Below, in pieces: positions 9,888 through 31,123 of a DNA stretch of 64,000 bases. The notes under the pieces were generated by a model, which saw only the letters and a program-made list of their open reading frames with translations, did not search any database and had not been told where the DNA came from. Source of the DNA: Streptomyces ambofaciens ATCC 23877 (GTDB taxonomy: Bacteria > Actinomycetota > Actinomycetes > Streptomycetales > Streptomycetaceae); the NCBI RefSeq assembly GCF_001267885.1, contig NZ_CP012382.1, positions 5,133,001 to 5,197,000 on the forward strand, written 5' to 3'. The translations under genes and the position numbers were made by a program. How positions within the stretch are numbered: the first letter of the stretch is position 1; every line of letters begins with the position of its first letter.

Positions 9888-10652
9888 ATGCAGATCTTCG
9901 GCGTGGACATCGGCGGATCCGGGATCAAGGGCGCCCCTGTGGACCTCGACAGGGGCGACCTGGCCCAGGAGCGCCACAAGGTACTGACCCCGCACCCGGC
10001 GACCCCCGACGGCGTGGCCGACGGGGTCAAGCAGGTCGTCGAGCACTTCGGCTGGACCGGCCCGGTCGGGCTGACCTTCCCGGGGGTGGTCACGGGCGGC
10101 GCCACGGTCCGCACCGCGGCCAACGTGGACAGGAACTGGATCGACACGGACGCACGGGCCCTGTTCAGCGAGCGGCTGGGCGGGCTGGACGTGACCGTCG
10201 TCAACGACGCCGACGCGGCGGGCGTCGCCGAGATGCGCTTCGGCGCCGGCCGGGACCGCAAGGGCACGGTCATCCTCCTCACCTTCGGCACCGGCATCGG
10301 CAGCGCCGTCTTCACCGACGGCGTCCTCGTGCCCAACAGCGAGCTGGGTCACCTGGAGCTGGACGGCCACGACGCGGAGAAGCGCGCCTCCAGCAAGGCC
10401 AAGGAGGACCACGACATGTCGTGGGAGCACTGGGCCCACCGCGTGCAGAAGTACCTCGCCCACGTCGAGATGCTGTTCTCACCCGAGCTGTTCGTCATCG
10501 GCGGCGGCGTCAGCCGCAAGGCGCACAAGTTCCTGCCCCACATCGAGGGCATCAAGGCGGAGATCGTCCCCGCCCAGCTCCAGAACAACGCGGGCATCGT
10601 GGGGGCGGCGATGCACGCGGCCGACCGCGCGAGCGGGACCAGCCTCGGCTGA
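9888..10652 (+). CDS. ppgK: Polyphosphate glucokinase
   Basis: 254 residues, ROK-family fold. The phosphate-binding motif [16 protein letters not shown], the catalytic [16 protein letters not shown], and [13 protein letters not shown] are present. The [11 protein letters not shown] segment and the [16 protein letters not shown] block are characteristic of actinobacterial polyphosphate-dependent glucokinases, which phosphorylate glucose with inorganic polyphosphate. A TAACGT box 6 nt before ATG 9888 suggests leaderless expression. The stop codon lies inside the first unit of an 8-bp tandem array. Confidence 0.94.
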
Positions 10653-10718
10653 CCGGCTGACCGGCTGACCGGCTGACCGGCTGACCGGCTGACCGGCTGA
10701 CCGGCTGACCGGCTGGCC
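10647..10718. repeat. Tandem 8-bp array (GGCTGACC)x8 plus one variant, overlapping the ppgK stop
   Basis: Eight perfect GGCTGACC units run from 10647 to 10710, then a ninth GGCTGGCC. The ppgK TGA (10650-10652) lies in unit one. Beyond it, 10719-10830 is degenerate low-complexity sequence built of GTGCCGG/CATGCAGGTC-like words. The 185-bp gap to the next gene holds nothing else I can identify. Confidence 0.9.
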
Positions 10719-10837
10719 ATGCAGGTGTGCCGGCCAGGTCGTGCCGGCCATGCAGTTCGTGCCGGTGGTGCAGGTCGTGCCGGCGGTGCTGCCCGTGCAG
10801 GCCGTGCCCGCCGTGCCGGCCGTGGCCGACCCGTCCG

Positions 10838-11651: not shown

Positions 11652-12728
<1,077 letters not shown>

Positions 12729-12740
<12 letters not shown>

Positions 12741-12816
12741 CGGCTGACAGACCACCGCGTCGCTGGTCTGGCAAACATGCAGGTCAGAGAGGGTCCGACT
12801 CTTCGGAGTCGGGCCC
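12729..12816 (+). repeat. Direct repeat copy A: ychF 3' end plus terminator (left flank of island)
   Basis: 88 bp, matching 16035-16122 without gaps at about 71 positions. The first 15 bases TTCAACGTGTAGCGG, which include the ychF stop codon, are identical in both copies. Candidate attachment-site remnant. Confidence 0.75.
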
Positions 12817-12826
12817 TTGGTTTTTC
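12791..12826 (+). terminator. Intrinsic terminator of ychF
   Basis: GGGTCCGACTC-TTCG-GAGTCGGGCCC forms a stem of 11 pairs including one G-T, with a stable TTCG tetraloop, and is followed by TTGGTTTTTC. The second copy at 16097-16122 keeps the stem with compensating changes. Confidence 0.8.
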
Positions 12827-12944
12827 CCGTGCTGAGATGGGATCGGGAGGCCCGTGCTGGGATGTGTGCGAGCGGGGCGTTGACCGAGCTGTGAAGGTAG
12901 TGCGGACGTGGCGCTTTTCCTACTCGTTTGACACAATCGGGGGC

Positions 12945-13229
12945 ATGGCTGAGGCGACGTACAGCATCGGGGAGGGGCCAGCGACGCGGGTGAGCCTGTC
13001 GCTGCCGGAGGGGACCGCGGAGGCGATCCGGGCGCGGGTGGGCAAGCGGGAGTTCTCCGCGTTCATCGCCGAGGCGGTCGAGCGTGAGCTGCGCGGGCAG
13101 GTCCTGGACGAGTACCTGGCGGACTACGAGAGCCGCAAGGGGCCGGTCTCCGAGCAGGCTCGTCAGCGGGCGCGGCAGGTCTTCGACGGGGTGTTCGCCG
13201 AGGAGGCCGAGTGGCCCGCCGCAGGCTGA
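12945..13229 (+). CDS. VapB-like antitoxin
   Basis: 94 residues. A ribbon-helix-helix DNA-binding segment is visible at about residues 14-50 (TRVSLSLPEGTAEAIRARVG, then FSAFIAEAVERELRG). The C-terminal region EYLADYESRKGPVSEQARQRARQVFDGVF would wrap the toxin. RHH antitoxins usually autorepress. The ATG at 12945 sits just after CGGGGGC; a CACAAT box lies 7 nt upstream, so the message may be leaderless. It overlaps the toxin gene by 19 nt. Confidence 0.8.
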   Translation: MAEATYSIGEGPATRVSLSLPEGTAEAIRARVGKREFSAFIAEAVERELRGQVLDEYLADYESRKGPVSEQARQRARQVFDGVFAEEAEWPAAG

Positions 13230-13624
13230 GTCACGAGGGGACGCTCGTCCTCGACAGCGAGGGACTCTCGCAGCTGCTCGCCGACGACGAGCAGGTGGTG
13301 GCTCTGATCGCTGAGGCGCGCTCGCGGGGCATGGAGGTCGTGATCAGTGCACTCGCCATCATCGAAGCCGTCCACGCCCGTACGAACAAGTCCCGCCTGA
13401 ACTGGGTGCTTTCCGGGCTGCGGGTCGTTCCCGTCGGCGACGAGGAGGCAAGGGCTGCCTCGAAGCTGCTGATGAATGCCGGATTGCACGGACACAAGTA
13501 CGCGATCGATGCGGCCATCGCCGAGGCCGCGCTGCGACAGCACCGCCCCGTGGTCATGCTGACTTCCGATATTGACGACATGGCCAAGCTGTGCGGTGGG
13601 CGGGTCCGGCTCGTGGCGGTGTGA
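13211..13624 (+). CDS. PIN-domain ribonuclease toxin (VapC-like)
   Basis: 137 residues. PIN-domain acidic residues are visible: D15 (LVLDSEGLS), E52 (IIEAVHAR), D100 (KYAIDAAIAEAAL) and D120/D122 (LTSDIDDM). These bind Mg2+ for RNA cleavage, typically of tRNA or mRNA. The GTG start at 13211 lies inside the antitoxin gene, giving translational coupling. With the RHH partner it forms a type II toxin-antitoxin module, commonly found on mobile islands. Confidence 0.82.
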   Translation: MARRRLSHEGTLVLDSEGLSQLLADDEQVVALIAEARSRGMEVVISALAIIEAVHARTNKSRLNWVLSGLRVVPVGDEEARAASKLLMNAGLHGHKYAIDAAIAEAALRQHRPVVMLTSDIDDMAKLCGGRVRLVAV

Positions 13625-13640
13625 TTTCCCTTGGTCCGGC

Positions 13641-13800
13641 TCAGTAGGACCGGGGTCCGTAGGGGCTCCAGTGACCGAGGAAGGGCTTGAGGTCGTCGCC
13701 GCTGGGTTTCGGCGGCGTGGGTTTCCTGCATGGCGGCTTCCCAGCGCTTTTGCTGTACCTCTCTGGCTTGCTGGTTGTTCTTCCAGAGGCCGGTCGGGGA
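13641..13800 (-). pseudogene. Frameshifted 3' remnant of an unidentified gene
   Basis: On the minus strand one frame reads ISPTGLWKNNQQAREVQQKRWEAAMQETHAA and an adjacent frame reads PPKPSGDDLKPFLGHWSPYGPRSY before a stop at 13641. The two pieces look like one coding sequence broken by a frameshift, with no start. Not identified; the short helical, glutamine-rich part is non-diagnostic. Confidence 0.35.
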
Positions 13801-13809
13801 GATCTGCCC

Positions 13810-14088
13810 ATTCGCTTGCACGGTGCGGGCTGCCGCACGCCCGCGCCTACGCGGCCGTCGACGAGCACCCCTTGGCCGCGCGCCCTGCTCGCCGCCGAAG
13901 ACGCCCTCCTCCCGGAGGACGGTCCCCAGCCCAGCTACTCCCGTGTGAGCGGCCCGGCCGCCGGCACCGTGGCCAGCCACACCGCCCGCACCCTGACCGA
14001 CCTCGCCGACCACATCGGCACCGAACAGCAGCACCGAGACGCCCTCACCCGCTGGGACCCCGGAAAGTACAAGCGCCGCAGTCGGGCG
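13810..14088 (+). pseudogene. Internal fragment of a Streptomyces helical-repeat regulator (probable)
   Basis: The plus strand encodes HARAYAAVDEHPLAA in one frame and then RALLAAEDALLPEDGP and GPAAGTVASHTARTLTDLADHIGTEQQHRDALTRWDP in another, with strong GC3 bias throughout. This resembles the C-terminal tetratricopeptide-like region of Streptomyces XRE-type regulators. No start codon is present and it stops abruptly at the 3' end of the DUF6000 gene at about 14090. It is a broken piece created by recombination. Confidence 0.4.
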
Positions 14089-14095
14089 ACTGCGG

Positions 14096-14728
14096 CTACG
14101 GCTGGGTCCAGCCGTGGGCGAAGCCGCACTGGAGGTCGGTCCAGCGGTGTCGTTCGGCGGGAATGTATTCGGGGGAGTCCTGGAGGTGCGCAAGGGCCTG
14201 GACCCACCCGTCCCAGAGGCCGTTGGGCTGGGTGAAGCGGTCGGCGTGGTGGGTGCCGAGGTGGGCGTCGAGGCGGAGGAGGGCACCGAGGGCTGCGGGC
14301 TGGTCGTAGCGGAGGTCGGTGCGGGGGAGGTAGCGGTCGAGGTAGGCGGTGAGGATCTCGGCGTCCGCGTGGGTGCCGAAGCGGGCCAGGGCGAAGCAGT
14401 AGGCGCCGCCGGAGAAGCAGAACTCGCTGGCGAGGAGCAGGTCGCCGATGCGTTTGCGGAACGTGGCGCGTCGGCCTACGCCGATCAACCAGCCGGCGGT
14501 GAGGCGTGAGCGCCACTCGTAGCCGAGGAGGGCCTCCAGCTCGGCGTCGGTGATCGTGGCCGCGTCGTCGATGAGGTGACGGGTGAAGCGTTCGGTGTGT
14601 GGCCACCCAGGCCGCAGGATGCGACCGCTCTTCAGGTCGAAGTAGCGCGCGCGGCCTGAGTCCTTCCTCGTCACGTAGCGCTCGATCACGTAGCCGTAGC
14701 CGATCTCCTCGGGGTGCTGGAACGGCAT
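14096..14728 (-). CDS. DUF6000-family protein
   Basis: 210 residues, no signal peptide or membrane segment. The pattern YVIERYVTRKDSGRARYFDL, IGVGRRATFRKRIGDLLLASEFCFSGGAYCFALARFGTHADAEIL matches the DUF6000 family as I recall it, a helical-repeat-like protein with PBS/HEAT character. Function unknown. It begins 3 nt after the stop of the HEAT-like gene, so it is the third gene of a tight minus-strand operon 15840-14096. Confidence 0.65.
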   Translation of the reverse strand: MPFQHPEEIGYGYVIERYVTRKDSGRARYFDLKSGRILRPGWPHTERFTRHLIDDAATITDAELEALLGYEWRSRLTAGWLIGVGRRATFRKRIGDLLLASEFCFSGGAYCFALARFGTHADAEILTAYLDRYLPRTDLRYDQPAALGALLRLDAHLGTHHADRFTQPNGLWDGWVQALAHLQDSPEYIPAERHRWTDLQCGFAHGWTQP

Positions 14729-14731
14729 CGG

Positions 14732-15463
14732 TCACCTCTCCGGGTACAGGTCGGCACGGTCGATCCAGGTGGGGGCGACGAAGATGTTCCTGTCGGTGGG
14801 GGCTTCGGACGCTTCCAGTAGGGACCAGGTGCGGGACTCCTCGACCAGGTGCTCCCAGGGCGCGGTCCAGTCGAGTTCCCAGTCCAGGCCAGTGTCGGAG
14901 ATGCCGTACATGCGGTCGGCGTCCACCCGCCAGAACTGGGAGTAGAGGATCACCTGGGCGTGGTCGGCCAAGTCGTTGATGATCTCCGCGAAGTGGGCCG
15001 AGGGCCAGCCCGGGGCGTCGTCCGCAGCGGTGGTTCGCAGGTGCGCGGTGAGCGGCGGGACAACGGGGGCGCGTGCGCCGAGTTCGGTCAGGGCCCAGCG
15101 GATGCCTTCCGGCTCGCTCCAGTCCGGTGGCGTCGCCCGTTCCAGGCAGGCGCGAAAGGCGCGGCGCACAGGCTCGACCGCGCCGTCGATCTCCAGGCTC
15201 GCCAGGGCCATCGCCGCCCATTCCCGGACGGTGGAGTCGTCGCTGCGCAGGAAGGCCACCAGAGCGGGGCCGCAGCGTGGGTCCGCCACCTCTTCGAAGA
15301 CCTCGATGGCGGTCAGCTGCCCGAAGCCGCCGAGGGAGGGCAGTCCGTCGATGATGGCGGGGATGGCGTCGGAGCCGATGCCGATCAGTTCTGCGCGGGC
15401 GTCGTACGACGGGCCGGTCGAGTCGTCGAGCTGCTGGATGAGTCTCTCGATGCGGGTCGTCAT
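14732..15463 (-). CDS. HEAT-repeat-like protein
   Basis: 243 residues. Repeated helical pairs are visible (IPAIIDGLPSLGGFGQLTAIEVFEEVADPRCGPALVAFL, then STVREWAAMALASLEIDGAVEPVRRAFRACLE), typical of HEAT/PBS-lyase repeats used as protein-binding scaffolds. The C-terminal third is different and acidic (TGLDWELDWTAPWEHLVEES). The ATG at 15463 overlaps the stop of the CPCC gene in an ATGA, so the genes are translationally coupled. Such small proteins are often immunity proteins of polymorphic toxins; no toxin is present here. Confidence 0.65.
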   Translation of the reverse strand: MTTRIERLIQQLDDSTGPSYDARAELIGIGSDAIPAIIDGLPSLGGFGQLTAIEVFEEVADPRCGPALVAFLRSDDSTVREWAAMALASLEIDGAVEPVRRAFRACLERATPPDWSEPEGIRWALTELGARAPVVPPLTAHLRTTAADDAPGWPSAHFAEIINDLADHAQVILYSQFWRVDADRMYGISDTGLDWELDWTAPWEHLVEESRTWSLLEASEAPTDRNIFVAPTWIDRADLYPER

Positions 15464-15840
15464 GGGCGGTCCCGGCGCCAGAAAGCGGGCAGCCACCAGC
15501 AGAGCACCGAGCTGTCGTCGGGCCACGGGACGCGGTCCTCGGCCTCCCAGTCCTCGAAGGAGTCGCGTGTCAGATCGATGGGGCGCCAGGCGGGGTCGAG
15601 CGGCTCGTCCTCGGCAGGCGGGCGGACGAACCGCCGACCGTGCTCGTCGCAGGCGCCGAAGTCCTGGTAGTTCCGCTGGGCCTCGATCAGGGAGACCTTA
15701 TTCGCCCCGCCTGCCATGGTTGGCCAGCGGAACTGGACCCCGTCATCCTCCCAGAAGCAGACGGGGCAGATCTCGTACGAGCCGGGCATCGCGTCCAGCA
15801 CGCGGTGTCCGCAGCACGGGCAGGGGTAGGAGTCGCTCAC
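15460..15840 (-). CDS. CPCC-family cysteine-rich protein
   Basis: 126 residues. The N-terminal zinc-ribbon-like motif YPCPCCGHRVLD...YEICPVCFWEDDGVQ (residues about 5-35) defines the CPCC domain. Then comes a NKVSLIEAQRNYQDFGACDE segment and an acidic, tryptophan-rich tail. The function is unknown; the domain is frequent beside polymorphic toxin and immunity genes. GTG 15840 is preceded by GGAG at 9 nt. First gene of the three-gene minus operon. Confidence 0.75.
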   Translation of the reverse strand: MSDSYPCPCCGHRVLDAMPGSYEICPVCFWEDDGVQFRWPTMAGGANKVSLIEAQRNYQDFGACDEHGRRFVRPPAEDEPLDPAWRPIDLTRDSFEDWEAEDRVPWPDDSSVLCWWLPAFWRRDRP

Positions 15841-17306
15841 CTGCGCAGTCTCCTTGGAGGTCCCGCCGGTGTGCCATGCATTTCTCTGCCTGGGGTGCCC
15901 GGCCAGTCCGCAGCCAGTCCGCAGGACACCAGTGAATGGCCGTTGGGAGCCAACGCGTGCCAACCAGGAAGGCCCAGGTCAGAGCTATAGATGGGGCTCC
16001 GCCGCAGGTCAGAACCAGTCCGCACACATCGGGCTTCAACGTGTAGCGGGTCACTTGGCACCGCTTCGCTGATCCGGCAAACGTGCAGTTCGGCGAGGGC
16101 CCGACTCTTCAGAGCCGGGCCTCCTGGCGGAGGCCCGCGCCCTGGTCGGCTCGGCCCTGCGGACCGGCGCGTCCGCCGACGCGCTGCGCCTGCGACCAGC
16201 GTCGCCGCCGGGTGCCGCCGCGCGGGCCGCAGCAGGGCGGCGAAGAACCGCCCGGTCTCGGCCCGTTCGGCGCGCGGCGCCTTCCCCTTCCGCGCCCGCC
16301 GCGCGGCCCGGCGCTCGGTGCGCCGGCCGAGCTTCACCAGCAGCGCCGGCAGCACGGTCAGCGAGCCCGCCACCGCCACGGCGACGACCAGGACGGTGCC
16401 CGTGGCGAGCGAGGAGAAGATCACGTCGGTGGCGAGATAGAGGGTGGCCGTGGACGCGATCACCGCGAGTCCGGAGATCACGATCGACCGCCCGGCCGTC
16501 GCCGCCGCCAGCTCCACGAGCGCCTCCGACGTGAGCCGCCCGCCCGCGCGTGCCCGCTCCTCCCGCTCCCGCTTGAGGTAGAAGAGCGTGTAGTCGACGC
16601 CGACCGCCAGGCCGATCAGGAGGATCAGGTTCGTGCCCACGCCCGCGTCCGGGATCAGGTGCGAGGCCAGCATGTTGAGACCCATCGCCGCGGCGATCGA
16701 GGTCAGCGCCAGCAGCAGCGGCACCCCGGCCATCACCGCCGAGCCGAAGACGACCAGCAGCGTGATCAGCGTGACCGGCAGCGAGATCCGCTCCGAGAGG
16801 GCGAGGTCCTCGTCGCGCTGGTCGTTGACGCCCTTGCTGATCGCGGGGGAGTCGGTCTCCTCGATCTTCAGACCAGGGTGGGCCCTCGCCACCTTCTCGG
16901 TCTCCGCCAGCAGCGGGACGACGTTCTTCTTGCCCTCCAGCTCGGGGCCCTTGAGGGTCACCGACACGCGGACGGTGTCGCCGTCGCGCGAGCGCACCGG
17001 ATCGGCGACGCTCGCGACCTCCGGCAGTTTCGCCATCCGCGCGGCGACGTCCCGGGCCGCGGCCTCCGCGCCGTCGCCACCGCGGATCGTGACGTGCTCG
17101 ACCGGCTTGCGCTGAAGCCCGGCCTCGGTCGCCAGCTGCTCGGCCCGGCCGGCCTCGCCGACCCAGAAGTCCTCGGTGGTCGCTTGGTGGCTTCCGGCCG
17201 TCATCCCTGCGCTGAGGCACAGCACTACGAAGACGAGCCAGCCGATGATCGCCCGCCAGGGGTGGAGGGCGCTCCAGCGCGCCATCCTTACGGAGATGTT
17301 GGTCAT
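15837..17306 (-). pseudogene. MMPL-family transporter, truncated at its C-terminal half
   Basis: From ATG 17306 about 367 residues match RND/MMPL exporters: N-terminal helix (HPWRAIIGWLVFVVLCLSAGM), a periplasmic loop, then membrane segments with the GVGTNLILLIGLAVGVDYTLFYLKREREERA signature. Homology ends at about 16195 (HPAATL); the frame then runs through unrelated sequence and the direct repeat to a stop at 15837. Full-length family members have a second loop and six more helices, so the product should be non-functional. The break coincides with the right edge of the accessory island. Confidence 0.7.
16035..16122 (+). repeat. Direct repeat copy B: displaced ychF 3' end and terminator (right flank of island)
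   Basis: Ungapped partner of 12729-12816. It carries the same stop-codon sequence TTCAACGTGTAGCGG and a diverged form of the terminator hairpin, but there is no ychF coding sequence upstream of it. The stretch 15841-16034 before it holds no recognisable gene. Confidence 0.75.
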
Positions 17307-17573
17307 GACATCGATGCTGGCCGCGAGGCCCGGGGTGGCATCAGGACCGGCAGGTCGAACCTCGTGTCCACCGACCGGTGGACACGGGCCGGGGGTTTCC
17401 CCCACGCATGGCCCGCCGCGGCCACCGCCGGCGTGGCCTCACGGCCACCACAAGCGGCAGAGTCCCCGGGGTGCGGGGGGAGCGGAAGGGCCGCCGGTTT
17501 GCCGACACGAGGACACCTCGCCGCCTCGGAGCCCCCGGCCGGACCGCGGCCAGTCCGTCCGCCCCGGCCCGCG

Positions 17574-17693
17574 GCCTCCCGCTCGTCCGCGCCTCCCGCT
17601 CGTCCGCGCCTCCCGCTCGTCCGCGCCTCCCGCTCGTCCGCGGCCTCCCGCTCGTCCGCGCCTCCCGCTCGTCCGCGGCCTCCCGCTCGTCCG
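17574..17693. repeat. Seven tandem copies of a 17-bp repeat (GCCTCCCGCTCGTCCGC)
   Basis: Units start at 17574, 17591, 17608, 17625, 17643, 17660 and 17678, two of them separated by one extra G. The array lies in the 412-bp gap between the truncated MMPL start and the end of the sugar permease gene. The rest of the gap (17307-17573) shows no gene. Confidence 0.85.
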
Positions 17694-17718
17694 GGGCGTG
17701 CGTCCCGTCCGGCGTCCG

Positions 17719-18582
17719 CTACTTCGTGGCCCCCTGCGCGAACCCGTTGTAGATGTAGCGCTGGAGGAACAGGAAGATCACCAGGGTCGGCACGATCACG
17801 AGGATGGCTCCGGCGGAGATGTTCTCCCAGTGCGCCCCGAAGGGCCCCTTGAAGCGGAACAGGGCCGTCGACATCGTTCCGAGTTCCTCGGAGGGCATGT
17901 AGAGGAACGGGATGTAGAAGTCGTTGTACGTGGTGATGCCCTTGATGATGACCACGGTCGCGACCGCCGGCTTGAGCAGCGGAAAGATGATCTTCCGGTA
18001 GATCGTGAAGGAGTTGGCGCCGTCGAGCCGTGCCGCCTCGTCGAGGGATTTGGGGATGCCGCGGATGAACTGCAGGAAGATGTAGATCGACACGATGTCG
18101 GTGCCCATGTACAGCAGGATCGGCGCCCAGCGGGTGTCGAACAGGCCGAAGCTGTTGACGACCTGGAAGGTGGCGACCTGCGTGGTCACGCCGGGGACCA
18201 GGGTGGCGATCAGGAACAGGGCCATGACGAGGCCCTTGAAGCGGAAGTCGAAGCGGTCGATGGCGTACGCCGTCATGGAGCCGATGAGTACGGTGCCGGT
18301 GATGGAGAACAGCAGGATGAAGGCGGTGTTGCCGAAGGCCGTCAGCAGGTGGCCGTCGGTGAACGCCGTGGCGTAGTTGGAGAAGTTCAGCCAGTCGTCC
18401 GGCAGGGCCAGGGCGCCCTGTCCGTCGGAGATCTCGTCGTAGGACTTCAGCGAGGTCAGGAACACCACGAGGAGGGGGACGAGGACGACGAGGGAGGCGA
18501 TGACCAGCGACAGATAGGTGAGCGCGGTGCCGACGCGGGGGCGTCGGCGGGAGGGGTCCCGGTCGGGGACGGCGACGGTCAT
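17719..18582 (-). CDS. Sugar ABC transporter permease (MalG/CUT1 type)
   Basis: 287 residues with six hydrophobic segments. The EAA loop DEAARLDGANSFTIYRKIIFPLLKPA contacts the ATPase. It forms the inner-membrane channel with the upstream MalF-type permease. The ATG at 18582 overlaps the TGA of that gene (ATGA). No ATPase gene is nearby; Streptomyces CUT1 importers usually borrow the shared MsiK ATPase. The locus indicates beta-mannooligosaccharides as the likely substrate. Confidence 0.88.
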   Translation of the reverse strand: MTVAVPDRDPSRRRPRVGTALTYLSLVIASLVVLVPLLVVFLTSLKSYDEISDGQGALALPDDWLNFSNYATAFTDGHLLTAFGNTAFILLFSITGTVLIGSMTAYAIDRFDFRFKGLVMALFLIATLVPGVTTQVATFQVVNSFGLFDTRWAPILLYMGTDIVSIYIFLQFIRGIPKSLDEAARLDGANSFTIYRKIIFPLLKPAVATVVIIKGITTYNDFYIPFLYMPSEELGTMSTALFRFKGPFGAHWENISAGAILVIVPTLVIFLFLQRYIYNGFAQGATK

Positions 18583-19571
18583 ACGAGGTCCACCCTCTCG
18601 TCGGGCACGATGCGGCGCTGGATCCAGGTGATCAGCAGGATGAGAGCCAGCAGCACCACCGCACAGGCGGAGGCCAGACCGGTCTTGTTGAACTGGAAGG
18701 CGAACTTCACCGTCTGGATGACGAACGTCGAGGTCTCGGTCGCGCCGCCGGTCATGATGTACGGGATCTCGAAGACGGACAGCGAGCCGGAGATCGCCAG
18801 GATGACGCTCAGGCTCAGCACGGGCCGGATGCCCGGCGCGATGATGTGCCGGAACTGCTGCCACCGACTGGCGCCGTCGAGCTGGGCGGCCTCGTAGAGC
18901 TCCCCGGGGATGGACTGGATCGCGCCGAGGAACAGGACGAAGTTGAGGCCGGTGAAGCGCCACACGGACACGCCGGCCAGTGAGGTGTTGGCGGACTCCG
19001 GGCTGCCGAGCCAGGCGTGGTCGCCGTCCGCGCCGAACCAGGACAGCACGGAGTCGAGGGTGCCGCCGTCCTGGAAGAAGTAGAGGAAGACGAAGCCGAT
19101 CGCGACCCCGTTGATCAGGTACGGGAAGAACAGGATGCCCTTGAACAGGTTCCTGAAGCGCAGGTCGAAGCTGAGGACGGTGGCGAAGTACAGGGCGACG
19201 GTGATCTGCACGACGGACGCCGTGAGGTAGTAGAGGCTGACCGCGAAGACCTTGAAGAGTTCGGGCCGGGTGAACAGCTCGGTGTAGTTGTCGCCGCCGA
19301 CGAAGTTCCGGTCGGGGCTGACGCCGTCCCAGTCGGTGAAGCTGTAGAAGATCATGTTGCCCACCGGCACGTAGGTGAACGTGACCAGCAGGGCGAGCGG
19401 GGCCAGGAGGAACAGCCACGGGGTGACACGGCGCAACGGCCGGTCGTGCCACGAGGCGCCGCCCGGTGCACGGTGGCGGGACCGCCGCCCGGCGGTCCCG
19501 TGCTTCTCGGCGGCCGTGCCGGCCGCGCCGGCCGCCACGGGCGGGGACGCGGTGGAGGGGGTACGGGTCAT
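18579..19571 (-). CDS. Sugar ABC transporter permease (MalF/CUT1 type)
   Basis: 330 residues. A long basic, Ala-rich cytoplasmic N-terminus of about 48 residues is followed by six membrane segments starting at TPWLFLLAPLALLVTFTYVPV. The EAA motif ELYEAAQLDGASRWQQFRHIIAPGIRPV is intact. It pairs with the MalG-type subunit. It lies 88 bp downstream of the binding-protein gene in the same operon. Confidence 0.88.
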   Translation of the reverse strand: MTRTPSTASPPVAAGAAGTAAEKHGTAGRRSRHRAPGGASWHDRPLRRVTPWLFLLAPLALLVTFTYVPVGNMIFYSFTDWDGVSPDRNFVGGDNYTELFTRPELFKVFAVSLYYLTASVVQITVALYFATVLSFDLRFRNLFKGILFFPYLINGVAIGFVFLYFFQDGGTLDSVLSWFGADGDHAWLGSPESANTSLAGVSVWRFTGLNFVLFLGAIQSIPGELYEAAQLDGASRWQQFRHIIAPGIRPVLSLSVILAISGSLSVFEIPYIMTGGATETSTFVIQTVKFAFQFNKTGLASACAVVLLALILLITWIQRRIVPDERVDLV

Positions 19572-19659
19572 AGCGGGGCCAGGGCCTTTCGTCGTCCGCT
19601 GAGGGGAACGGGGCGCGGAGTCCCTCCCGTCCGGGGGAGGGACCCGGCTGGGCGACGGT

Positions 19660-20982
19660 TCAGGAGCCGACCGTCCGCCTGGCCTGCGACCAGCGCTCGT
19701 CCAGTTCGTCGAAGTAGCCGTCGAGCGTCCCGTCCACGGCGCCGCGCGCGATGTCGATCAGCTTCTGGCGGTAGTCGGGCTTGGCCAAGCCGATCTCGGA
19801 GGCGTTGTCGATGGCGTTGACCTCGGACGTCCGTGCCTCGGACCGCTCCACGATCTTGACATCGTTGTCTACGTATTCCTGAAGGGTGTCCGGCATCCCC
19901 TCGGACTTCAGGGCGGAGACCGCGCCCTCCTTCGCCGCGTAACCCGACTTCTCGGTGAACCAGTCGATCCAGGCCCGGGCCGCGCTCTTGTGGTCGGAGT
20001 GGACGTTCACGGCCTGCTGGTAGTCGGAGACCAGGGTGGCGCAGAACCTGCCGCCCTCCTGGGCCGGGACGGGCATGAAGCCGATGTCGTCGGGGTTCTC
20101 GCCGGCCTTCTCGGCCGCGTCCCGCATCTGGTTGATCGCCCAGGAGCCGAGCATCATGCTGCCCACCTCGCCCTTGGCCAGCAGGGTCTTCGAGCTCTCC
20201 CAGTTGGTGGTGGCCGGGTCCTTCTCCGAGAGCTTCTCGTGGACGATGTCGTGGAGCAGGGTGTCGAGCGCGTGGAGGTCCGTGCCCTCCTCCCAGGGCT
20301 TGTCCATCTCGGCCAGCTTGTCCGACGCCTGGCTGTCGCAGCTGACCGAGCCGACGCTGTTGGTCCAGGTGCCGCTGAGCGGCCAGCCGTCCTTGAAGTT
20401 GGTGTAGTACGGCGTGGCGCCGGTCTTCCGCTCGACGGCCCTGAGGTCGTCCAGGAACTGCCGCGTCGTGGTGGGCCACTCGGAGATACCGGCCTGCTTC
20501 CACAGCGCCTTGTTGTAGACGAAGCCGTTGGCGGTGCCGAAGGTGGCGATCCCGTAGGTCCTGCCGTCGACGTCGGTCTTGTCGGTGAAGCGGTACGTGC
20601 TCTTCATCGTCGAGGTGTCGCCGAGCGGCGCGAAGAACTTGGGGTAGTCGCCCTTGGCGATCACCCCGGGGATGAGCAGGACGTCGCCGTAGTCCTCGGT
20701 GTTCATGCGGATCTTCACCTCACCCTCGTAGTCGGTGAGGCCCTCGAAGCCGACCTTCACCTCGGGGTAGGTCTTGTTGAACTCGGCGGCGTACTTCTTC
20801 ATCGTGCCGTCCTGGATCAGGTCGGTGCGATTGGTCAGGACGGTGATGTCCCCCGAGACGCCGTCCGGGTTGACCGGCGCGGCGGCTGTCTCGTCGGCGT
20901 TCGGGCTCCCGCCCCCGCTGCACCCCGCGACGGTCAGCATCGCGGTGGTGAGCAGAGCGACGCCCAGCGTCTTCTTCCCCAT
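19660..20982 (-). CDS. Sugar-binding lipoprotein of CUT1 ABC importer (probable mannooligosaccharide)
   Basis: 440 residues. Signal sequence MGKKTLGVALLTTAMLTVAGC ends in the lipobox VAGC (C21), so the mature protein is a lipid-anchored extracellular solute-binding protein of family 1. The sequence has typical features: DYGDVLLIPG, TANGFVYNKALWKQAGI and a GSMMLGSWAINQM hinge-side motif. RBS GGAAGGAG is upstream of ATG 20982. It is first gene of the operon and divergent from the beta-mannosidase; an operator-like palindrome lies at 21051. Confidence 0.88.
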   Translation of the reverse strand: MGKKTLGVALLTTAMLTVAGCSGGGSPNADETAAAPVNPDGVSGDITVLTNRTDLIQDGTMKKYAAEFNKTYPEVKVGFEGLTDYEGEVKIRMNTEDYGDVLLIPGVIAKGDYPKFFAPLGDTSTMKSTYRFTDKTDVDGRTYGIATFGTANGFVYNKALWKQAGISEWPTTTRQFLDDLRAVERKTGATPYYTNFKDGWPLSGTWTNSVGSVSCDSQASDKLAEMDKPWEEGTDLHALDTLLHDIVHEKLSEKDPATTNWESSKTLLAKGEVGSMMLGSWAINQMRDAAEKAGENPDDIGFMPVPAQEGGRFCATLVSDYQQAVNVHSDHKSAARAWIDWFTEKSGYAAKEGAVSALKSEGMPDTLQEYVDNDVKIVERSEARTSEVNAIDNASEIGLAKPDYRQKLIDIARGAVDGTLDGYFDELDERWSQARRTVGS

Positions 20983-21050
20983 GTGCCCAGCTCCTTCCAG
21001 GGACTACGGCTCGGGCTCCGGTGGTTGTCGGCGACTATGGCAGGCAGGCG

Positions 21051-21062
21051 TGAACCGGTAAA
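21051..21062. promoter_or_regulatory. Candidate LacI operator, site 1 (TGAACCGGTAAA)
   Basis: Left half of the inferred palindrome TGAACCGGTTCA is perfect. It lies 69 bp upstream of the binding-protein start, in the divergent promoter region shared with the beta-mannosidase. Confidence 0.5.
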
Positions 21063-21171
21063 GCTGAAGACTTGACCGCGATATCCAATCGTTACCTGTC
21101 CGAGGTGGTGGTGCGGGAAATCGGTTGTCGTAGCTGGGCGGTTACTGACGGACGAGCTGTCGGGAGAGGGC

Positions 21172-21183
21172 TAGACCGGTTCA
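21172..21183. promoter_or_regulatory. Candidate LacI operator, site 2 (TAGACCGGTTCA)
   Basis: Right half of TGAACCGGTTCA is perfect. It lies 67 bp upstream of the beta-mannosidase start. Sites 1 and 2 are 121 bp apart in the same intergenic region, a layout allowing looping or independent control of the two divergent transcripts. Confidence 0.5.
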
Positions 21184-21250
21184 CTGGCGGAGGGTTAAGT
21201 TGAGCCGCACCGCACATGAATCCGGGCCCGTCCCGCCTAAGGAGCCGCAC

Positions 21251-23758
21251 ATGAAGGAAGTCGTCCAGCTCGCCGAGGGCTGGAGCCTCTGCCACAGCGA
21301 CGGTCCGCTGCCCGCCCGGGTCCCCGGCTGTGTCCACACCGATCTGCTCGCCGCCGGTCTGATCCCGGACCCCTTCCTCGGCGCCAACGAGCCGGAGGTG
21401 GCCTGGGTCGGGCGGCGTTCCTGGAGCTACGTCCGGGATCTGGCCGCCTCCGACACCGCCGGGACGGGGCACGAGCGGACCGACCTCGTCTTCGACGGGC
21501 TGGACACGGCCGCGACCGTCACGCTGGACGGGCGGGAGCTCGGGCGCACCCGCAACATGCACCGCCGTCACCGCTTCGACGTCACCGGTCACCACGGGCG
21601 GCTGACGGTGGACTTCGCCTCCGCATACGACGAGGCCGCGTCGGTGCGAGCGCTGACGGGGGAGCGGCCCAACGTCTATCCCGAGCCGTTCCAGTACATC
21701 CGCAAGATGGCGTGCAGTTTCGGCTGGGACTGGGGCCCGACGCTGGTGACCGCCGGCATCTGGCGTCCGGTCCGGCTGGAGCGCTGGTCGACGGCGCGAC
21801 TGGCCGGGGTGCGTCCGCTGGTGACCGTCCAGGACGGCACCGGGCGGGTCGAGGTGCGGGTCGAGGTCGAGCGCACCGCGCAGGGTGCGGCCCGTCGCCT
21901 CGCCGTGCGCGCCGCCGTCGCGGGCGCCGAGGCCCATGCCGCCGTCGACGGAACGCAGGCCGTGCTGACGCTCGACGTACCCGACGTCTCCCTGTGGTGG
22001 CCGCGCGGCTACGGCGCACAACCGCTCTACGAGCTGGAGGTCGAACTGACCGAGGGCGGTGCCGAGGGCGGGACCGCGGACGGGACCGCGAGCGGGGCCG
22101 GGAACGGGACGGGCTACGGGACCGCGAACGGCGCCGGGAACCGGACCACGGGCCGGCGGCTGGACTCCTGGCGCCGCCGGATCGGTTTCCGCAGCGTGGA
22201 ACTCGACCGCTCCCCGGACGAGCACGGCACCGGGTTCACCCTGGTCGTCAACGGCGTACCCGTCTTCGCGCGCGGCGTGAACTGGATCCCCGACGACGTC
22301 TTCCCCTCCCGGATCACGCCCGAGCGCTACCGCACCCGGCTGCGTCAGACGGCCGACGCCGGAGTGGACCTGGTGCGGATCTGGGGCGGCGGCATCTACG
22401 AGGACGACGCCTTCTACGACGTCTGCGACGAGCTGGGCCTCATGGTCTGGCAGGACTTCCTCTTCGCCTGCGCCGCCTATCCCGAGGAGCAGCCGTTGCG
22501 CGGCGAGGTGGAGGCCGAGGCCCGGGACAACGTTGTCCGGCTGATGCCGCACCCGAGCCTCGTGCTGTGGAACGGCAACAACGAGAACCTGTGGGGCTTC
22601 AGGGACTGGGACTGGGAGCCCGCGCTCGCCGGTGACTCCTGGGGCGGCGGCTACTACCTGGACCTGCTGCCCCGCGTCGTCGCCGAGCTCGATCCGACCC
22701 GGCCCTACACCGCGGGCAGCCCCTGGTCCGGATCGTGGGACCACCACCCCAACGACCCGGCCCACGGGACGCACCACTCCTGGGAGGTCTGGAACCGCCG
22801 GGACTACGCCGAGTACCGCGACTCCGTCCCCCGCTTCGTGTCGGAGTTCGGCTGGCAGGCGCCGCCCGCCATGGCGACCCTGCGGCGCGCGCTGCCGGGG
22901 GAGCGGCTCGCCCCCGACTCGCCCGGCATGCTGCACCACCAGAAGGCCGAGGACGGCAACGGCAAACTGAACCGGGGCGTCGAACGCCACTTCGACCTGC
23001 CGACGGACGACTTCGACCGCTGGCACTACCTCACCCAGGTCGTCCAGGCCCGTGCCGTCGCCGCCGGCATCGAACACTGGCGTGCGCACTGGCCGGTCTG
23101 CGCGGGCACCGTCGTGTGGCAGATCAACGACTGCTGGCCGGTGAGCTCCTGGGCCGCCATCGACGGCGACGGCAGGCCCAAGCCCCTGTACCACGAGCTG
23201 CGCCGGGTCTACGCGGACCGGCTCCTCACGCTCCAGCCGGGCACCGACGGCCCGGTCCTCGCCGTCGTCAACCAGGCCGCGGAGCCGTGGCAGGCCCCGG
23301 TGACCCTGCGCAGGCTGCGGGCGGACGGTACCGAGGTGGCGCACCTGGTCGTCGACGTGACCGTCGCCCCCCGCTCGGTGCACCGGCAGGAGGTGCCGCG
23401 GGAACTGGCGCCGGACGAGCGGTCGGGCAAGGAACTCCTCGTCGCCGACTGCCGCGAGCTGCGGGCGCTGCATGTGCCGGTACCGGACAAGGACTTCGCG
23501 TATCCGGCCCCCCGCTACGACGTCGCCGTCGAGTCTCCGGTCGGTGGTGGTGCGGGTAGTGTCGAGGTCGTGGTGACAGCACACACTCTCGTACGTGACC
23601 TTCTCCTGCAGGCCGACCGGCTCGGCCCGGACGCGGTCTGCGACACCGGACTGCGCACCCTGCTTCCCGGAGAACGGGCCCGGCTGCGGGTCGTGGGCGC
23701 GACCGAGGCCGGCGCCAACGCCGTACGCGCCGCCCTGTACTGCGTGGCACCGGCGTGA
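21251..23758 (+). CDS. Beta-mannosidase, glycoside hydrolase family 2
   Basis: 835 residues, cytoplasmic (no signal peptide). N-terminal sugar-binding domain (LPARVPGCVHTDLLAAGLIPDPF..NE), immunoglobulin-like domain, then the catalytic barrel with FARGVNWIPDDVFPSRI, acid/base E445 in WNGNNENLWGF and nucleophile E532 in FVSEFGWQAPP. It hydrolyses terminal beta-mannosyl residues of imported oligosaccharides. An unusual Gly/Thr/Ala/Asn-rich insertion lies at about residues 272-300, between the Ig-like domain strands. ATG 21251 has AAGGAG 6 nt upstream. It overlaps the LacI gene (GTGA), so they are co-translated. Confidence 0.92.
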   Translation: MKEVVQLAEGWSLCHSDGPLPARVPGCVHTDLLAAGLIPDPFLGANEPEVAWVGRRSWSYVRDLAASDTAGTGHERTDLVFDGLDTAATVTLDGRELGRTRNMHRRHRFDVTGHHGRLTVDFASAYDEAASVRALTGERPNVYPEPFQYIRKMACSFGWDWGPTLVTAGIWRPVRLERWSTARLAGVRPLVTVQDGTGRVEVRVEVERTAQGAARRLAVRAAVAGAEAHAAVDGTQAVLTLDVPDVSLWWPRGYGAQPLYELEVELTEGGAEGGTADGTASGAGNGTGYGTANGAGNRTTGRRLDSWRRRIGFRSVELDRSPDEHGTGFTLVVNGVPVFARGVNWIPDDVFPSRITPERYRTRLRQTADAGVDLVRIWGGGIYEDDAFYDVCDELGLMVWQDFLFACAAYPEEQPLRGEVEAEARDNVVRLMPHPSLVLWNGNNENLWGFRDWDWEPALAGDSWGGGYYLDLLPRVVAELDPTRPYTAGSPWSGSWDHHPNDPAHGTHHSWEVWNRRDYAEYRDSVPRFVSEFGWQAPPAMATLRRALPGERLAPDSPGMLHHQKAEDGNGKLNRGVERHFDLPTDDFDRWHYLTQVVQARAVAAGIEHWRAHWPVCAGTVVWQINDCWPVSSWAAIDGDGRPKPLYHELRRVYADRLLTLQPGTDGPVLAVVNQAAEPWQAPVTLRRLRADGTEVAHLVVDVTVAPRSVHRQEVPRELAPDERSGKELLVADCRELRALHVPVPDKDFAYPAPRYDVAVESPVGGGAGSVEVVVTAHTLVRDLLLQADRLGPDAVCDTGLRTLLPGERARLRVVGATEAGANAVRAALYCVAPA

Positions 23759-24783
23759 GCGCACCCTCCGAGCGCGTCACCATCAAGGACGTGGCCGCCG
23801 CCGCGGGCGTGTCGAAGGGTGCCGTGTCGCTGGCGTTCAACCACAAGCCGGGCGTCTCGGAGGCCACCCGGGAGCGGATCTTCGCGGCGGCCCGGCAGCT
23901 GGGCTGGGCGCCCAACTCCTCGGCCCGCAGCCTGTCGCGCCAGTCGGTCGACACCGTCGGGCTGGCGATCTGCCGGCCGGCCCGGCTGCTCGGCCTGGAG
24001 CCGTTCTACATGGAGTTCGTCTCCGGCATCGAGAGCGTGCTGGCCGAGCGGGACTGCTCGCTGCTGCTACGGCTGGTCGACTCGCTGGAGGAGGAGATCG
24101 GTCTCCAGGAGCGCTGGTGGAGGGAGCGGCAGGTCGGGGGCTCGATCCTGGTCGACTTCCATCGGGAGGACCCGCGGGTCGAACCGCTGCGGCGACTCGG
24201 ACTGCCCGCCGTCGCCGTCGGGCACCCTTCCCTGACCGGGGGTTTCCCCTCCGTATGGACCGACGACGCCGCCGCCGTCGCCGAGGCGGTGCGCTACCTG
24301 GCGGCGCTGGGCCACCGGCGCATCGCGCACGTGGGCGGCCCCCGCGGCCTGGGGCACAGCGCCATCCGGACGACCGCGTTCGAACAGACCATGGCCGAAC
24401 TCGGCCTGCGGGGCGGCCTGCACGCGGAGACGGGTTTCTCGGGCGACGAGGGGGCACGCGCGACGCGCTCCCTGCTGCTCACCCCGGAACGGCCCACGGC
24501 GATCCTCTACGACAACGACATCATGGCGGTCGCCGGACTCGGTGTGGCGGCCGAGATGGGCATCTCGGTGCCGGACGACCTGTCGCTGCTGGCCTGGGAC
24601 GACTCCCAGCTGTGCCGGCTGACCCATCCGACGCTGTCCGCGATGAGCCACGACGTGCACGGTTTCGGGGCGCAGGTCACGCGCGTGCTGTTCGAGGTGC
24701 TCGACGGCCGGCAGGTCGCCTCCCGGCCGGTGGCGACACCGTCCCTCGTACCGCGTGCCTCGACCGCGTCACCTCGTTCCTAG
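23755..24783 (+). CDS. LacI-family repressor of the mannan locus
   Basis: 342 residues. N-terminal helix-turn-helix VTIKDVAAAAGVSKGAVSLAFNHKPGVSEATRERI with the hinge helix region NSSARSLSRQ, then a periplasmic-binding-like effector domain. GTG 23755 overlaps the beta-mannosidase stop. The context predicts that it represses the ABC importer, the mannosidase and the GH5 mannanase, and is released by a manno-oligosaccharide; four related palindromes at the locus are candidate sites. The effector is inferred, not shown. Confidence 0.88.
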   Translation: MSAPSERVTIKDVAAAAGVSKGAVSLAFNHKPGVSEATRERIFAAARQLGWAPNSSARSLSRQSVDTVGLAICRPARLLGLEPFYMEFVSGIESVLAERDCSLLLRLVDSLEEEIGLQERWWRERQVGGSILVDFHREDPRVEPLRRLGLPAVAVGHPSLTGGFPSVWTDDAAAVAEAVRYLAALGHRRIAHVGGPRGLGHSAIRTTAFEQTMAELGLRGGLHAETGFSGDEGARATRSLLLTPERPTAILYDNDIMAVAGLGVAAEMGISVPDDLSLLAWDDSQLCRLTHPTLSAMSHDVHGFGAQVTRVLFEVLDGRQVASRPVATPSLVPRASTASPRS

Positions 24784-24836
24784 AGCGGGCACGCACGGGT
24801 GTGGAGCGGGGCGTCCGTCGCGCTCCACACCGGACA

Positions 24837-24848
24837 TGTACCGGTTCA
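24837..24848. promoter_or_regulatory. Candidate LacI operator, site 3 (TGTACCGGTTCA)
   Basis: Matches TGAACCGGTTCA in 11 of 12 positions. It sits 53 bp after the repressor gene, in the 435-bp region before the mannanase gene. No gene is visible in that region; the open frames there lack homology. Confidence 0.5.
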
Positions 24849-25097
24849 CCGACCAGGAACGTAGAGCCGCGTTGGGCGGCTGTCAATGAGTCCCGCAGCG
24901 GCTTCATGGGCTGGTGAGCGCCCGTTCTGCGGCACGTGCACATGCTGGTCAGCGCGTTTAGCGGTTTAGTTCGGGAGGCCTCGGCGGGCCCGGTGAACGG
25001 ATCGCGCCTCGACTATTGACATGAGCGGAACAGCCGGTGCCTCATGGTGGGGCGACGAGCCGTCCGCGGCCCGGCCCGGCCCGAGCCGTCGCGCACC

Positions 25098-25109
25098 GGA
25101 ACCGGTTGC
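25098..25109. promoter_or_regulatory. Candidate LacI operator, site 4 (GGAACCGGTTGC)
   Basis: Contains the perfect inner palindrome AACCGGTT. It lies 110 bp upstream of the mannanase start, a suitable place to block its transcription. Confidence 0.4.
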
Positions 25110-25218
25110 CCGGTGCTCACTCCGCTCCACCCCCGAGGCGCCCGCGAGGCGCACGTCAGGCGTGCCCGCGGTCGACCGACATCGTTGTCATCGGGCGCTC
25201 AGCGACATGAGGAGAGAC

Positions 25219-26373
25219 ATGCGAAAACCACGTAGAGCCCTGTTCTCGACGGCGGGGGCGGCGTTCGCCGCCGTCCTCGGCCTGGTGGTCTCGCTGGCCG
25301 GACCCACCACGGGCACGGCGGAGGCGGCACCCACCGGTATCCGCGTCAGCGGCGGCCGGGTGGTCGAGGCCGACGGGAGCGACTTCGTCATGCGCGGGGT
25401 CAACCACGCCCACGCGTGGTACCCCGACCGCACGGGTTCCCTCGCCGACATCGCGGCCGAGGGGGCCAACACCGTCCGCGTCGTGCTCAGCAGCGGCGAC
25501 CGCTGGACCCGGACGAGTGCCGCCGAGGTCTCCTCCGTCATCGGCCGGTGCAAGGCAGCCAAGGTCATCTGCGTGCTGGAGGTGCACGACACCACCGGCT
25601 ACGGGGAGGACGGCGCCGCGACCTCCCTGGACAGGGCGGCGAACTACTGGATCGGCGTGCGGAGCGCGTTGGAGGGCCAGGAGGACTACGTCGTCGTCAA
25701 CATCGGCAACGAGCCGTTCGGCAACACCGGCTACAGCGCGTGGACCGGCGCGACGAAGGCGGCGATCGGCAAGCTGCGCGGTGCGGGCATCGACCACGCC
25801 CTGATGGTCGACGCCCCCAACTGGGGCCAGGACTGGTCCGGCACGATGAGGAACAACGCCGCGTCCGTCCTCGCCTCCGACCCCGACCGCAACACCATCT
25901 TCTCGATCCACATGTACGGGGTCTACGACACCGCCGCCGAGGTACGGGACTACCTGCACGCCTTCACCGACAACGGACTGCCCATCGTGGTGGGCGAGTT
26001 CGGTGACCGGCACAGCGACGGCAACCCCGACGAGGACGCCATCATGGCCACCGCGCGGACCCTGGGCGTCGGCTACATCGGCTGGTCGTGGAGCGGCAAC
26101 GGCAGCGGCGTCGAGTACCTCGACATGGTCAACGGCTTCGACGCGAACTCACTGACCGGCTGGGGCAACCGCATCCTCAACGGCAGCGACGGCATCGCCG
26201 CCACGTCCAGGACCGCCCGCGTCTACGGCGGCGGGGGCGGCACGGGCGGCGGCACCGCGCCCAACGGATACCCGTACTGCGTGGACGGCGGCTCGTCCGA
26301 CCCGGACGGGGACGGCTGGGGCTGGGAGAACAACCGCTCCTGCGTCGTCCGCGGCAGCGCCGCCGACCGCTGA
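25219..26373 (+). CDS. Secreted beta-mannanase, GH5 (GH5_8-like) with a short CBM10-like tail
   Basis: 384 residues. Sec signal peptide (MRKPRRALFS... cleavage near AEA-AP at 36/37). The catalytic domain has MRGVNHAHAWYPD, acid/base E165 in NIGNEPFG, and nucleophile E260 in VVGEFGDRHSD, as in Streptomyces mannanases. A Gly-rich linker (about 337-346) leads to a compact NGYPYCVDGG...DGWGWENNRSCVV motif (349-376) like CBM10, with C354 and C375 able to form a disulfide. It cleaves mannan outside the cell for the adjacent importer. ATG 25219 has GAGGAG upstream; ATG 25207 is the alternative. Confidence 0.9.
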   Translation: MRKPRRALFSTAGAAFAAVLGLVVSLAGPTTGTAEAAPTGIRVSGGRVVEADGSDFVMRGVNHAHAWYPDRTGSLADIAAEGANTVRVVLSSGDRWTRTSAAEVSSVIGRCKAAKVICVLEVHDTTGYGEDGAATSLDRAANYWIGVRSALEGQEDYVVVNIGNEPFGNTGYSAWTGATKAAIGKLRGAGIDHALMVDAPNWGQDWSGTMRNNAASVLASDPDRNTIFSIHMYGVYDTAAEVRDYLHAFTDNGLPIVVGEFGDRHSDGNPDEDAIMATARTLGVGYIGWSWSGNGSGVEYLDMVNGFDANSLTGWGNRILNGSDGIAATSRTARVYGGGGGTGGGTAPNGYPYCVDGGSSDPDGDGWGWENNRSCVVRGSAADR

Positions 26374-26401
26374 CGCCGCTCGCCCGTCCACGGGGCTGTC
26401 C

Positions 26402-26439
26402 GGCCGTCCTCCCGCCCACGGGGAGGCGGGAGGACGGCC
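26402..26439. terminator. Hairpin terminator after the mannanase
   Basis: A perfect 15-bp stem (26402-26416 with 26425-26439) around an 8-nt loop, beginning 28 bp after the stop codon. It lacks a U-tract, as is common in Streptomyces. Confidence 0.7.
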
Positions 26440-26463
26440 CCCTGGCGCGTCGCCCGCCCGGTG

Positions 26464-26530
26464 TCACCGGCCCCTCGTGCCGTCGATCAGTTCCCGCAGG
26501 ATGTTCGCGTGGCCGGCAGTTCGACACGTC
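26464..26530 (-). pseudogene. 3' remnant of a DinB/DUF664 gene
   Basis: The minus strand ends TAGHANILRELIDGTRGR-stop, which is the characteristic C-terminus of DinB/DUF664 proteins (GHADILREQIDG). Upstream of it the frame loses homology immediately, so only about 20 codons remain. The remainder of the 26374-26680 gap holds the terminator above and no recognisable gene. Confidence 0.5.
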
Positions 26531-26680
26531 GCTGCCGCACGGGCTGGGCGGCGCCGACGGAGGCGCGGTCGAACGTCTCGTACTCTTCGGCCTGCAAGGG
26601 GTGCGTGCGCACGTGCGCGGCGGCTGAGCGGCGGGGCCGGGGGGCCGGTTCCCGGCGGCCGGGAGGGAGTGCGGTACGGG

Positions 26681-29041: not shown

Positions 29042-29048
29042 GGGGCCG

Positions 29049-29972: not shown

Positions 29973-30066
29973 GCCCGTTGGCTATCACCGCGGGTCTTGG
30001 ACGGGCAACAGGCTTGTGGCGCACAGTGGTTGGCAGTTGCAGGGTACGAGTGACGAGGGAGTCGGC

Positions 30067-30897: not shown

Positions 30898-30948
30898 CCG
30901 ACCGGTCAGGAGGCGGAGTCCGGAAGCGGTCCGCTCAAACGGCATGGG

Positions 30949-30973
30949 GCCCCGCACATCCGTGCGGGGCTCT
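30949..30973 (+). terminator. Intrinsic terminator after the SDR gene
   Basis: GCCCCGCAC-ATCC-GTGCGGGGC, a perfect 9-bp stem with a 4-nt loop followed by TCTTGT. Confidence 0.75.
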
Positions 30974-31123
30974 TGTGCAATTCCTCTGGAAGCCTCAATC
31001 TTTCGGCTGACGCACCAAAGCCGCCTCGCAATTGGCATGACCATGACCAATCGGTCGCCGGGGGCGGCCTGCTCGGCGTGCACGAACCCCACCACGCACC
31101 ACCGACTGAGGAGGACCCCTCAC

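Follow-up and report, generated by a model that had tools for sequence, protein, structure and literature searches.

The stretch analysed here is a window of 64,000 nt from Streptomyces ambofaciens ATCC 23877 (contig NZ_CP012382.1), and all coordinates below are positions within it. The gene for the GTPase YchF (ychF, 11652–12740, plus strand; PF06071, E = 2.4e-39) is followed by a 3.3-kb island, which carries a VapBC-like toxin–antitoxin pair, two gene pieces and three small genes, and is bordered by two copies, A and B, of the ychF end. This island seems to consist of remnants of two mobile elements, now fused, that had inserted at the same short sequence, and the 3' end of ychF appears to be a site used by several streptomycete families of mobile elements and by some phages.

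The two copies form an ungapped direct repeat (A, 12729–12815; B, 16035–16121; plus strand) with 82% identity across 87 nt, the first 15 nt being identical. These 15 nt, TTCAACGTGTAGCGG, are taken as the attachment core. Copy A of the core (12729–12743, plus strand), located by repeat and pattern searches, sits at the ychF stop and corresponds to the final codons of the gene, TTC AAC GTG TAG; an imperfect inverted repeat, with TTCCGG upstream and TAGCGG downstream, was read around it by eye. With up to one mismatch allowed, TTCAACGTGTAGCGG occurs in only two places in the 8.39-Mb genome, copies A and B, and a reversed control pattern gave no match in that genome. A search of the same genome with positions 12600–12830 as the query retrieved copy B at E = 2.5e-17. 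Besides its core (16035–16049), copy B includes an older terminator module that resembles the alpha type introduced below and is 79–82% identical to modules behind ychF in three other genomes (G065, G115 and G135). A tRNA gene was rejected as the integration target, as there is none within the window.

Directly behind the ychF stop, the island opens with a left end and terminator module (12741–12840, plus strand) of a type that we call alpha, with 92% identity to G135 and 89% to G065 and G116. It is followed by the gene for a VapB-like antitoxin (12945–13229, plus strand), which matched no family in Pfam/NCBIfam-type profile searches, and by that for a VapC-like PIN-domain toxin (13211–13624, plus strand; PF01850, E = 7.6e-05). 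The name VapBC was given on the grounds of a PIN match barely above the cut-off (23.7 versus 23.6 bits), a VapC model below it (NF047959, 20 versus 80 bits) and the pairing of homologues of both genes in segments of nine genomes, this one included. Positions 12828–13721 are 96% identical to G093 and 12829–13721 are 94% identical to G116; in both genomes, the VapBC pair precedes a gene of 473 or 474 aa, and in G116 the whole alpha cassette measures 2,984 nt and is closed by its own attachment site (att) copy. The remnant of this gene in the island was assigned to 13625–13836 (minus strand), and alignment to G116 and G093 placed what is left of it at 13703–13836, with two internal deletions. Its intact form (473 aa; L157:1382–2800) matched no family in the profile searches.

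Position 13836 is the point where the matches to the alpha cassette meet those to an element in S. rhizosphaerihabitans (G024), which represents a second type, beta. A fragment of a 455-aa gene from the beta interior (13836–14076, plus strand) is 91% identical to sequence found 12282–12524 nt behind ychF in G024, and 14103–16049 has 88% identity with the G024 element's right end. This half of the island encodes, on the minus strand, a DUF6000 protein (14096–14728; PF19463, E = 1.4e-75), a HEAT-repeat protein (14732–15463; PF13646, E = 2.3e-06) and a CPCC cysteine-rich protein (15460–15843; PF14206, E = 1.9e-35). The beta right end proper (15905–16034, plus strand) contains repeats that, by comparison with G024, are putative arm sites to which an integrase would bind: AGTCCGCAG at 15905 and 15916, GTCCGCA at 16018, and CAGGTCAG at 15975 and 16005. 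At the right end of the G024 element, the CAGGTCAG pair is kept and one of three GTCCGCA repeats is exact, the other two being changed, and the left end has two GTCCGCA. A 72% identical counterpart of the DUF6000–HEAT–CPCC half is also found on a plasmid of Streptomyces sp. NBC_01445 (NZ_CP109486.1, 693728–696093).

The G024 island begins 109 nt after ychF with a gene for a PF00589 tyrosine integrase; then come those for a helix-turn-helix protein (a match below cut-off), a DUF3631 protein and a relaxase of MobA type (PF03432). One att copy lies at the ychF end of this island and another 17,784 nt further downstream. Because an integrase, a DUF3631 protein and a relaxase are combined with att copies at both ends, it is read as an integrative mobilizable element (IME), its mobility being predicted.

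Since the halves of the S. ambofaciens island match two elements that meet at 13836, copy A is assigned by alignment to the alpha element and copy B to the beta element. The original prediction had correctly described a gap-free repeat of the ychF end, and its account of the genes in between agrees with the family matches. The loss of an integrase, which it had also proposed, is supported in that the 20 kb behind ychF gave none, either by hidden Markov model (HMM) or by motif; furthermore, the genome has no match to the beta (threshold 1e-70) or gamma (1e-60) integrases described below, and none of the five island genes matched a relaxase or transfer family in Pfam or NCBIfam. Its view of A and B as the two ends of one element was not supported, given the separate matches of the two halves to the alpha cassette and the G024 element.

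The ychF end was then considered across the genus. A match to the 3' part of ychF was found in every one of the 131 Streptomyces genomes searched. For 100 Streptomyces genomes, with one genome per species, the stretch behind ychF was taken up to a length of 20 kb; with the window added, this gave 101 loci, 78 of them at least 19 kb long. The gene ends in FNV-stop in 98 of them, with FNN-stop in G144 and different ends in G022 and G101; the stop codon itself varies (TGA in 44, TAG in 43 and TAA in 14), and the post-stop sequence is highly variable. With att copies defined as TTCAAYGTNT followed by AG, GA or AA within 20 kb behind ychF, 38 extra copies were found in 32 of the 101 loci, a lower bound given the strict pattern and the early contig ends of some loci. 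All of them lie on the ychF strand, and the opposite strand of the same loci gave no match. The genome nearest in ychF shares the 60 nt behind the stop in 8 of 99 cases, no more than the 7.9% among all pairs, and this decoupling of the post-stop sequence from ychF relatedness fits frequent overwriting of the gene end. For the same reason, neither A nor B can be singled out as the native copy. In a wider draw, 174 of 392 genomes matched the 108-nt module of the window (E ≤ 0.001).

Integrases of at least two families are tied to this site. Among the 131 genomes, the beta integrase had six matches of at least 81% identity, located at ychF in G024, G145, G080, G096 (a piece) and G062; the sixth, in G101, is on a contig that has a copy of the module and not the ychF found in that genome. 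Thirteen further matches of 41–61% were not near ychF. A larger survey of named genome contigs compared 50 loci of at least 74% identity with 11 of at most 53%. In the former group, an att copy lay 95–177 nt from the integrase end in 44 loci, exactly 112 nt in 31, and ychF was present in the fetched stretch in 43; the latter group had neither a nearby att copy nor ychF in any locus (0/11 for both). The 44 loci include representatives of Kitasatospora (L210 and L216) and Actinacidiphila (L243). As 21 of the 50 loci were matched over fewer than 300 of the 372 residues, two of them (L239 and L249) at contig ends, the beta integrase appears to have decayed often at this site. In S. echinatus (G016), what remains of an integrase is an end piece of 66 residues, 112 nt away from an att copy, and the DUF6000–HEAT–CPCC region finds a match 527–2470 nt behind ychF; apparently, this is the same loss as in S. 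ambofaciens, caught at another stage.

The gamma integrase, with the query taken from G096, gave nine matches of at least 51% identity in eight genomes, two pieces in G088 being counted as one, and all nine lie 9–28 kb behind ychF; none of the seven matches of 40–48% is so located. Both families look non-viral, as searches of viral contigs returned a single distant (46%) relative of the beta integrase and none of the gamma integrase. The proposal that the ychF 3' end, with a core around TTCAACGT and the stop, serves as a tyrosine-integrase attachment site is supported by these surveys, and islands with integrases at the ychF end, which the original prediction had suggested looking for, do exist in the beta and gamma families. 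Nor do relatives lack insertions at this position, the observation it had named as its disproof, given the extra att copies in about a third of the loci. Separately, beta integrase relatives of ~45% identity occur roughly 230–310 kb from ychF in G065, G068, G073, G007, G015 and G117, a shared distance that suggests another conserved integration site.

Phages and satellites add to the list of users. The Streptomyces satellite phage Mulchroom (OQ784832) carries 41 nt of ychF end, 95% identical, beside a tyrosine integrase gene, and because of this adjacency it presumably uses the same ychF site. Mulchroom is a phage satellite with capsid and terminase genes whose integrase and flanking repeats are unlike those of the island, and it is not the source of the latter. 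In the part of the Mulchroom paper available to us (PMC10690885), ychF and attB were not found and the integration site was not named. The core pattern further occurs in 11 IMG/VR contigs, and a tyrosine integrase gene adjoins it in four (L251, L253, L259 and L261), which are probable phages or satellites using the ychF site; L251 and L253 share their flanks and may represent a single element.

The combination of end types agrees with an origin from two elements. With classes and thresholds set after the data had been seen, 18 of 19 segments with an alpha right end also have an alpha left end, and 7 of 10 with a beta right end have a beta left end. Of the other three beta-ended segments, two (the S. 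ambofaciens island and G108) start with an alpha end and one with an end of a third type. In S. kebangsaanensis (G295), an alpha island of 18.1 kb is followed by a beta element of 16.4 kb in an unfused tandem, with the beta integrase gene 109 nt past the inner att copy. The earlier model, a single integrative element at ychF that had A and B as its ends and whose integrase disappeared through internal decay, accords with the common 15-nt core, the similar terminator modules and the lack of an integrase in the 20 kb behind ychF. However, the two halves match separate elements that have att copies of their own in other genomes, G295 holds both kinds side by side, and the alpha-left/beta-right combination is found in only 2 of the 10 beta-ended segments, this island included, under classes that were chosen post hoc. 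We therefore regard a single element as unlikely. At ychF in G013 (L034 and L035) is a 26.7-kb island that carries a BrxC/PglY homologue of BREX type (first 385 residues tested); behind it come an att copy and a VapBC cassette resembling the one described here.

Many alpha islands carry toxin–antitoxin or restriction-modification genes. The 18 paired alpha segments span 0.9–36 kb, and no tyrosine integrase was found in them by HMM or motif among open frames of at least 120 aa. In seven whole genomes, no PF00589 match fell inside the alpha islands; the exact alpha-end pattern had no match in viral contigs; and a crude motif for serine recombinases gave two matches in the 101 loci, not credible by eye. 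A domain survey covered 77 of 181 open frames, with integrase-bearing segments and the alpha islands of G065, G115 and G087 excluded. The 25 Pfam families shown for these frames include restriction-modification, Uma2, Phd/YefM, YoeB, ParE, PIN and TIR families and no recombinase, 13 more single-member families lying outside those shown. Alpha-ended ychF islands of 30–36 kb with no PF00589 integrase occur in G084, G156 and G244 (L170–L173, L176 and L177).

At third codon positions, identity to G116 is 0.92 for vapB and 0.88 for vapC versus 0.776 for ychF, and identity to G093 is 0.97 and 0.90 versus 0.887. As the cassette is clearly closer to that of G116 than ychF is, it would have moved separately from ychF. 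Movement of alpha islands could be brought about by an integrase acting in trans or by homologous recombination. A broader form of the latter would have islands in general exchanged by recombination between ychF and the conserved terminator modules, with no site-specific recombinase and with the repeats marking a preferred joint. The alpha islands of the seven whole genomes, with no PF00589 integrase detected, would suit this account, as would the ~20–24 nt of ychF-like sequence carried by several alpha right ends. Against it stand the high specificity with which the beta and gamma integrases are located at ychF, the greater likeness to G116 of the cassette than of neighbouring ychF, and the independence from ychF with which the stop codon and the post-stop sequence change, so that we consider it very improbable. 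We put forward only tentatively, as a possibility on the doubtful side, that alpha islands are non-autonomous cassettes with toxin–antitoxin and defence genes, captured and shuffled at one site by a trans-acting recombinase in an integron-like manner across Streptomycetaceae. Least credible of all is the idea that copy B is no attachment site and arose from the ychF end by chance or by local duplication; a single copy in a single genome could arise locally, but this is contradicted here by copies at the distal ends of islands of differing content in 32 of 101 loci, in one orientation and with integrase genes adjoining.

The explanation that we hold to be very probable is that the ychF 3' end is the attB site of several integrases and that the island is a composite, akin to a cis-mobilizable element (CIME), of two tandem elements fused by deletion. 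Within Streptomycetaceae, several families of tyrosine integrases would use this attB. Insertion would leave ychF intact, as the incoming element would bring its own FNV, stop and terminator and push the older end to the far side. The S. ambofaciens genome would once have carried an integrase-less alpha cassette, with VapBC and the 473-aa gene, in tandem with a beta IME behind ychF, the latter having an integrase, a DUF3631 protein and a relaxase, with the DUF6000, HEAT and CPCC genes at its right end. A deletion jointed at 13836 would have taken the right half of alpha and the left part of beta, including the integrase, the relaxase and the att copy in between, and a second deletion (14076/14103) would have taken more of the beta interior. 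What is left would be a decayed composite, a CIME-like remnant. Alignment shows where both halves come from, where the joints lie and that the integrases are specific for the site; what we infer is that recombination takes place in the TTCAACGT core, that the arms bind integrase, that the lost genes were once present here, and in what order the events occurred.

Several observations weigh against this explanation or parts of it. A tyrosine integrase, or a piece of one, was detected by HMM in only 12 of the 101 loci, nine of them among the 32 with extra copies, and the alpha class yielded none. At copy B, the inverted repeat around the core is degenerate in its upstream half, TTCCGC. Apart from being defined post hoc, the end-type counts weaken when the reference segments are left out, to 15 of 16 for alpha–alpha and 3 of 6 for beta–beta, and the 19 gamma right ends are joined to left ends of mixed type (seven gamma, five alpha, four of a fourth type, one beta and two unclear). 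Six of the 50 beta loci have no nearby att copy: ychF is present in L202, L224 and L232 with the att copy 1.9–7.5 kb off, L208 and L239 stop at contig ends, and in L207 the only att copy is on the other side, 9.4 kb away. Separate movement of the alpha cassette rests mainly on G116, the excess of vapC over ychF being small with G093, and is weakened by the VapBC stretches of G135 and G013, which are only 89–90% identical. Finally, copy B and the conserved flank are separated by ~10.5 kb of accessory DNA, part of which is not explained by insertion at ychF, since no att copy bounds 16,123–26,660.

This accessory stretch begins beside copy B with an apparently truncated gene for an MMPL transporter (16123–17306, minus strand; PF03176 and TIGR00921), which matches profile positions 45–331 of 333 of PF03176 and only 149–395 of 733, in the first half, of TIGR00921. 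From 16,123 to ~26,660, it is accompanied by sugar ABC transporter genes and genes for a glycosyl hydrolase family 2 protein and a LacI regulator. A search for a further att copy in 16,130–26,700 gave, as the best match to the 18-nt core, one with five mismatches. The conserved flank of the ychF locus was assigned to 26660–32000 (strand not applicable), its start being approximate and its end that of the tested stretch; it begins 362 nt past the ychF stop in G043 and 482 nt past the distal att copy in G093. Tandem repeats are found on both sides of the locus, namely an 8-nt repeat, CGGCTGAC, upstream of ychF at 10638–10725, and one with a unit of ~17–18 nt at 17569–17712.

Integron arrays consist of small cassettes, some with toxin–antitoxin or restriction genes, each bounded by one recombination site and arranged in tandem. 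The ychF islands are comparable in arrangement, as they too stand in tandem and are bounded by one site, but the ychF core lies inside a gene end, at least two integrase families are involved and the elements reach 36 kb. The likeness to IMEs lies in the G024 source element, which has both a tyrosine integrase and a MobA-type relaxase and preserves the 3' end of the gene that it targets, whereas the island copy has neither enzyme. CIMEs and site-specific accretion are defined in PMC5704250, which, in the portion available to us, cites elements related to ICESt1 and Streptomyces pathogenicity islands. Measured against that portion, the island is CIME-like in being decayed, in having lost genes for integration and transfer, in keeping att sites at its borders (cores at 12729 and 16035) and in its tandem origin at a gene 3' end; it differs in that its borders apparently come from two elements fused by deletion and in that the site is ychF.

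A hotspot at the ychF end was not found described for Streptomyces in the literature searched. Sources available in part, queried for ychF with Streptomyces, integrase and attB, gave no report of the site, although absence there is not absence in print; the YchF product name combined with Streptomyces and integrase gave no paper, and nothing on a ychF site was found in the available part of PMC12924846. The sole match to ychF with integration site and genomic island was a pneumococcal satellite prophage upstream of ychF.

On the reading of the ychF 3' end as a shared attB, the end of a universal gene would be an integration hotspot for integrative elements of at least two families and, it appears, for satellite phages too, and the S. 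ambofaciens island would show how a composite can arise by fusion and deletion. The alpha islands with no detected integrase raise the testable question of trans-mobilization. The ychF integrases are candidate tools for vectors that would integrate at a conserved site and leave it intact. Given the BREX, type I restriction, TIR, YefM–YoeB and VapBC genes met there, the hotspot is also a place to look for defence and toxin–antitoxin systems.

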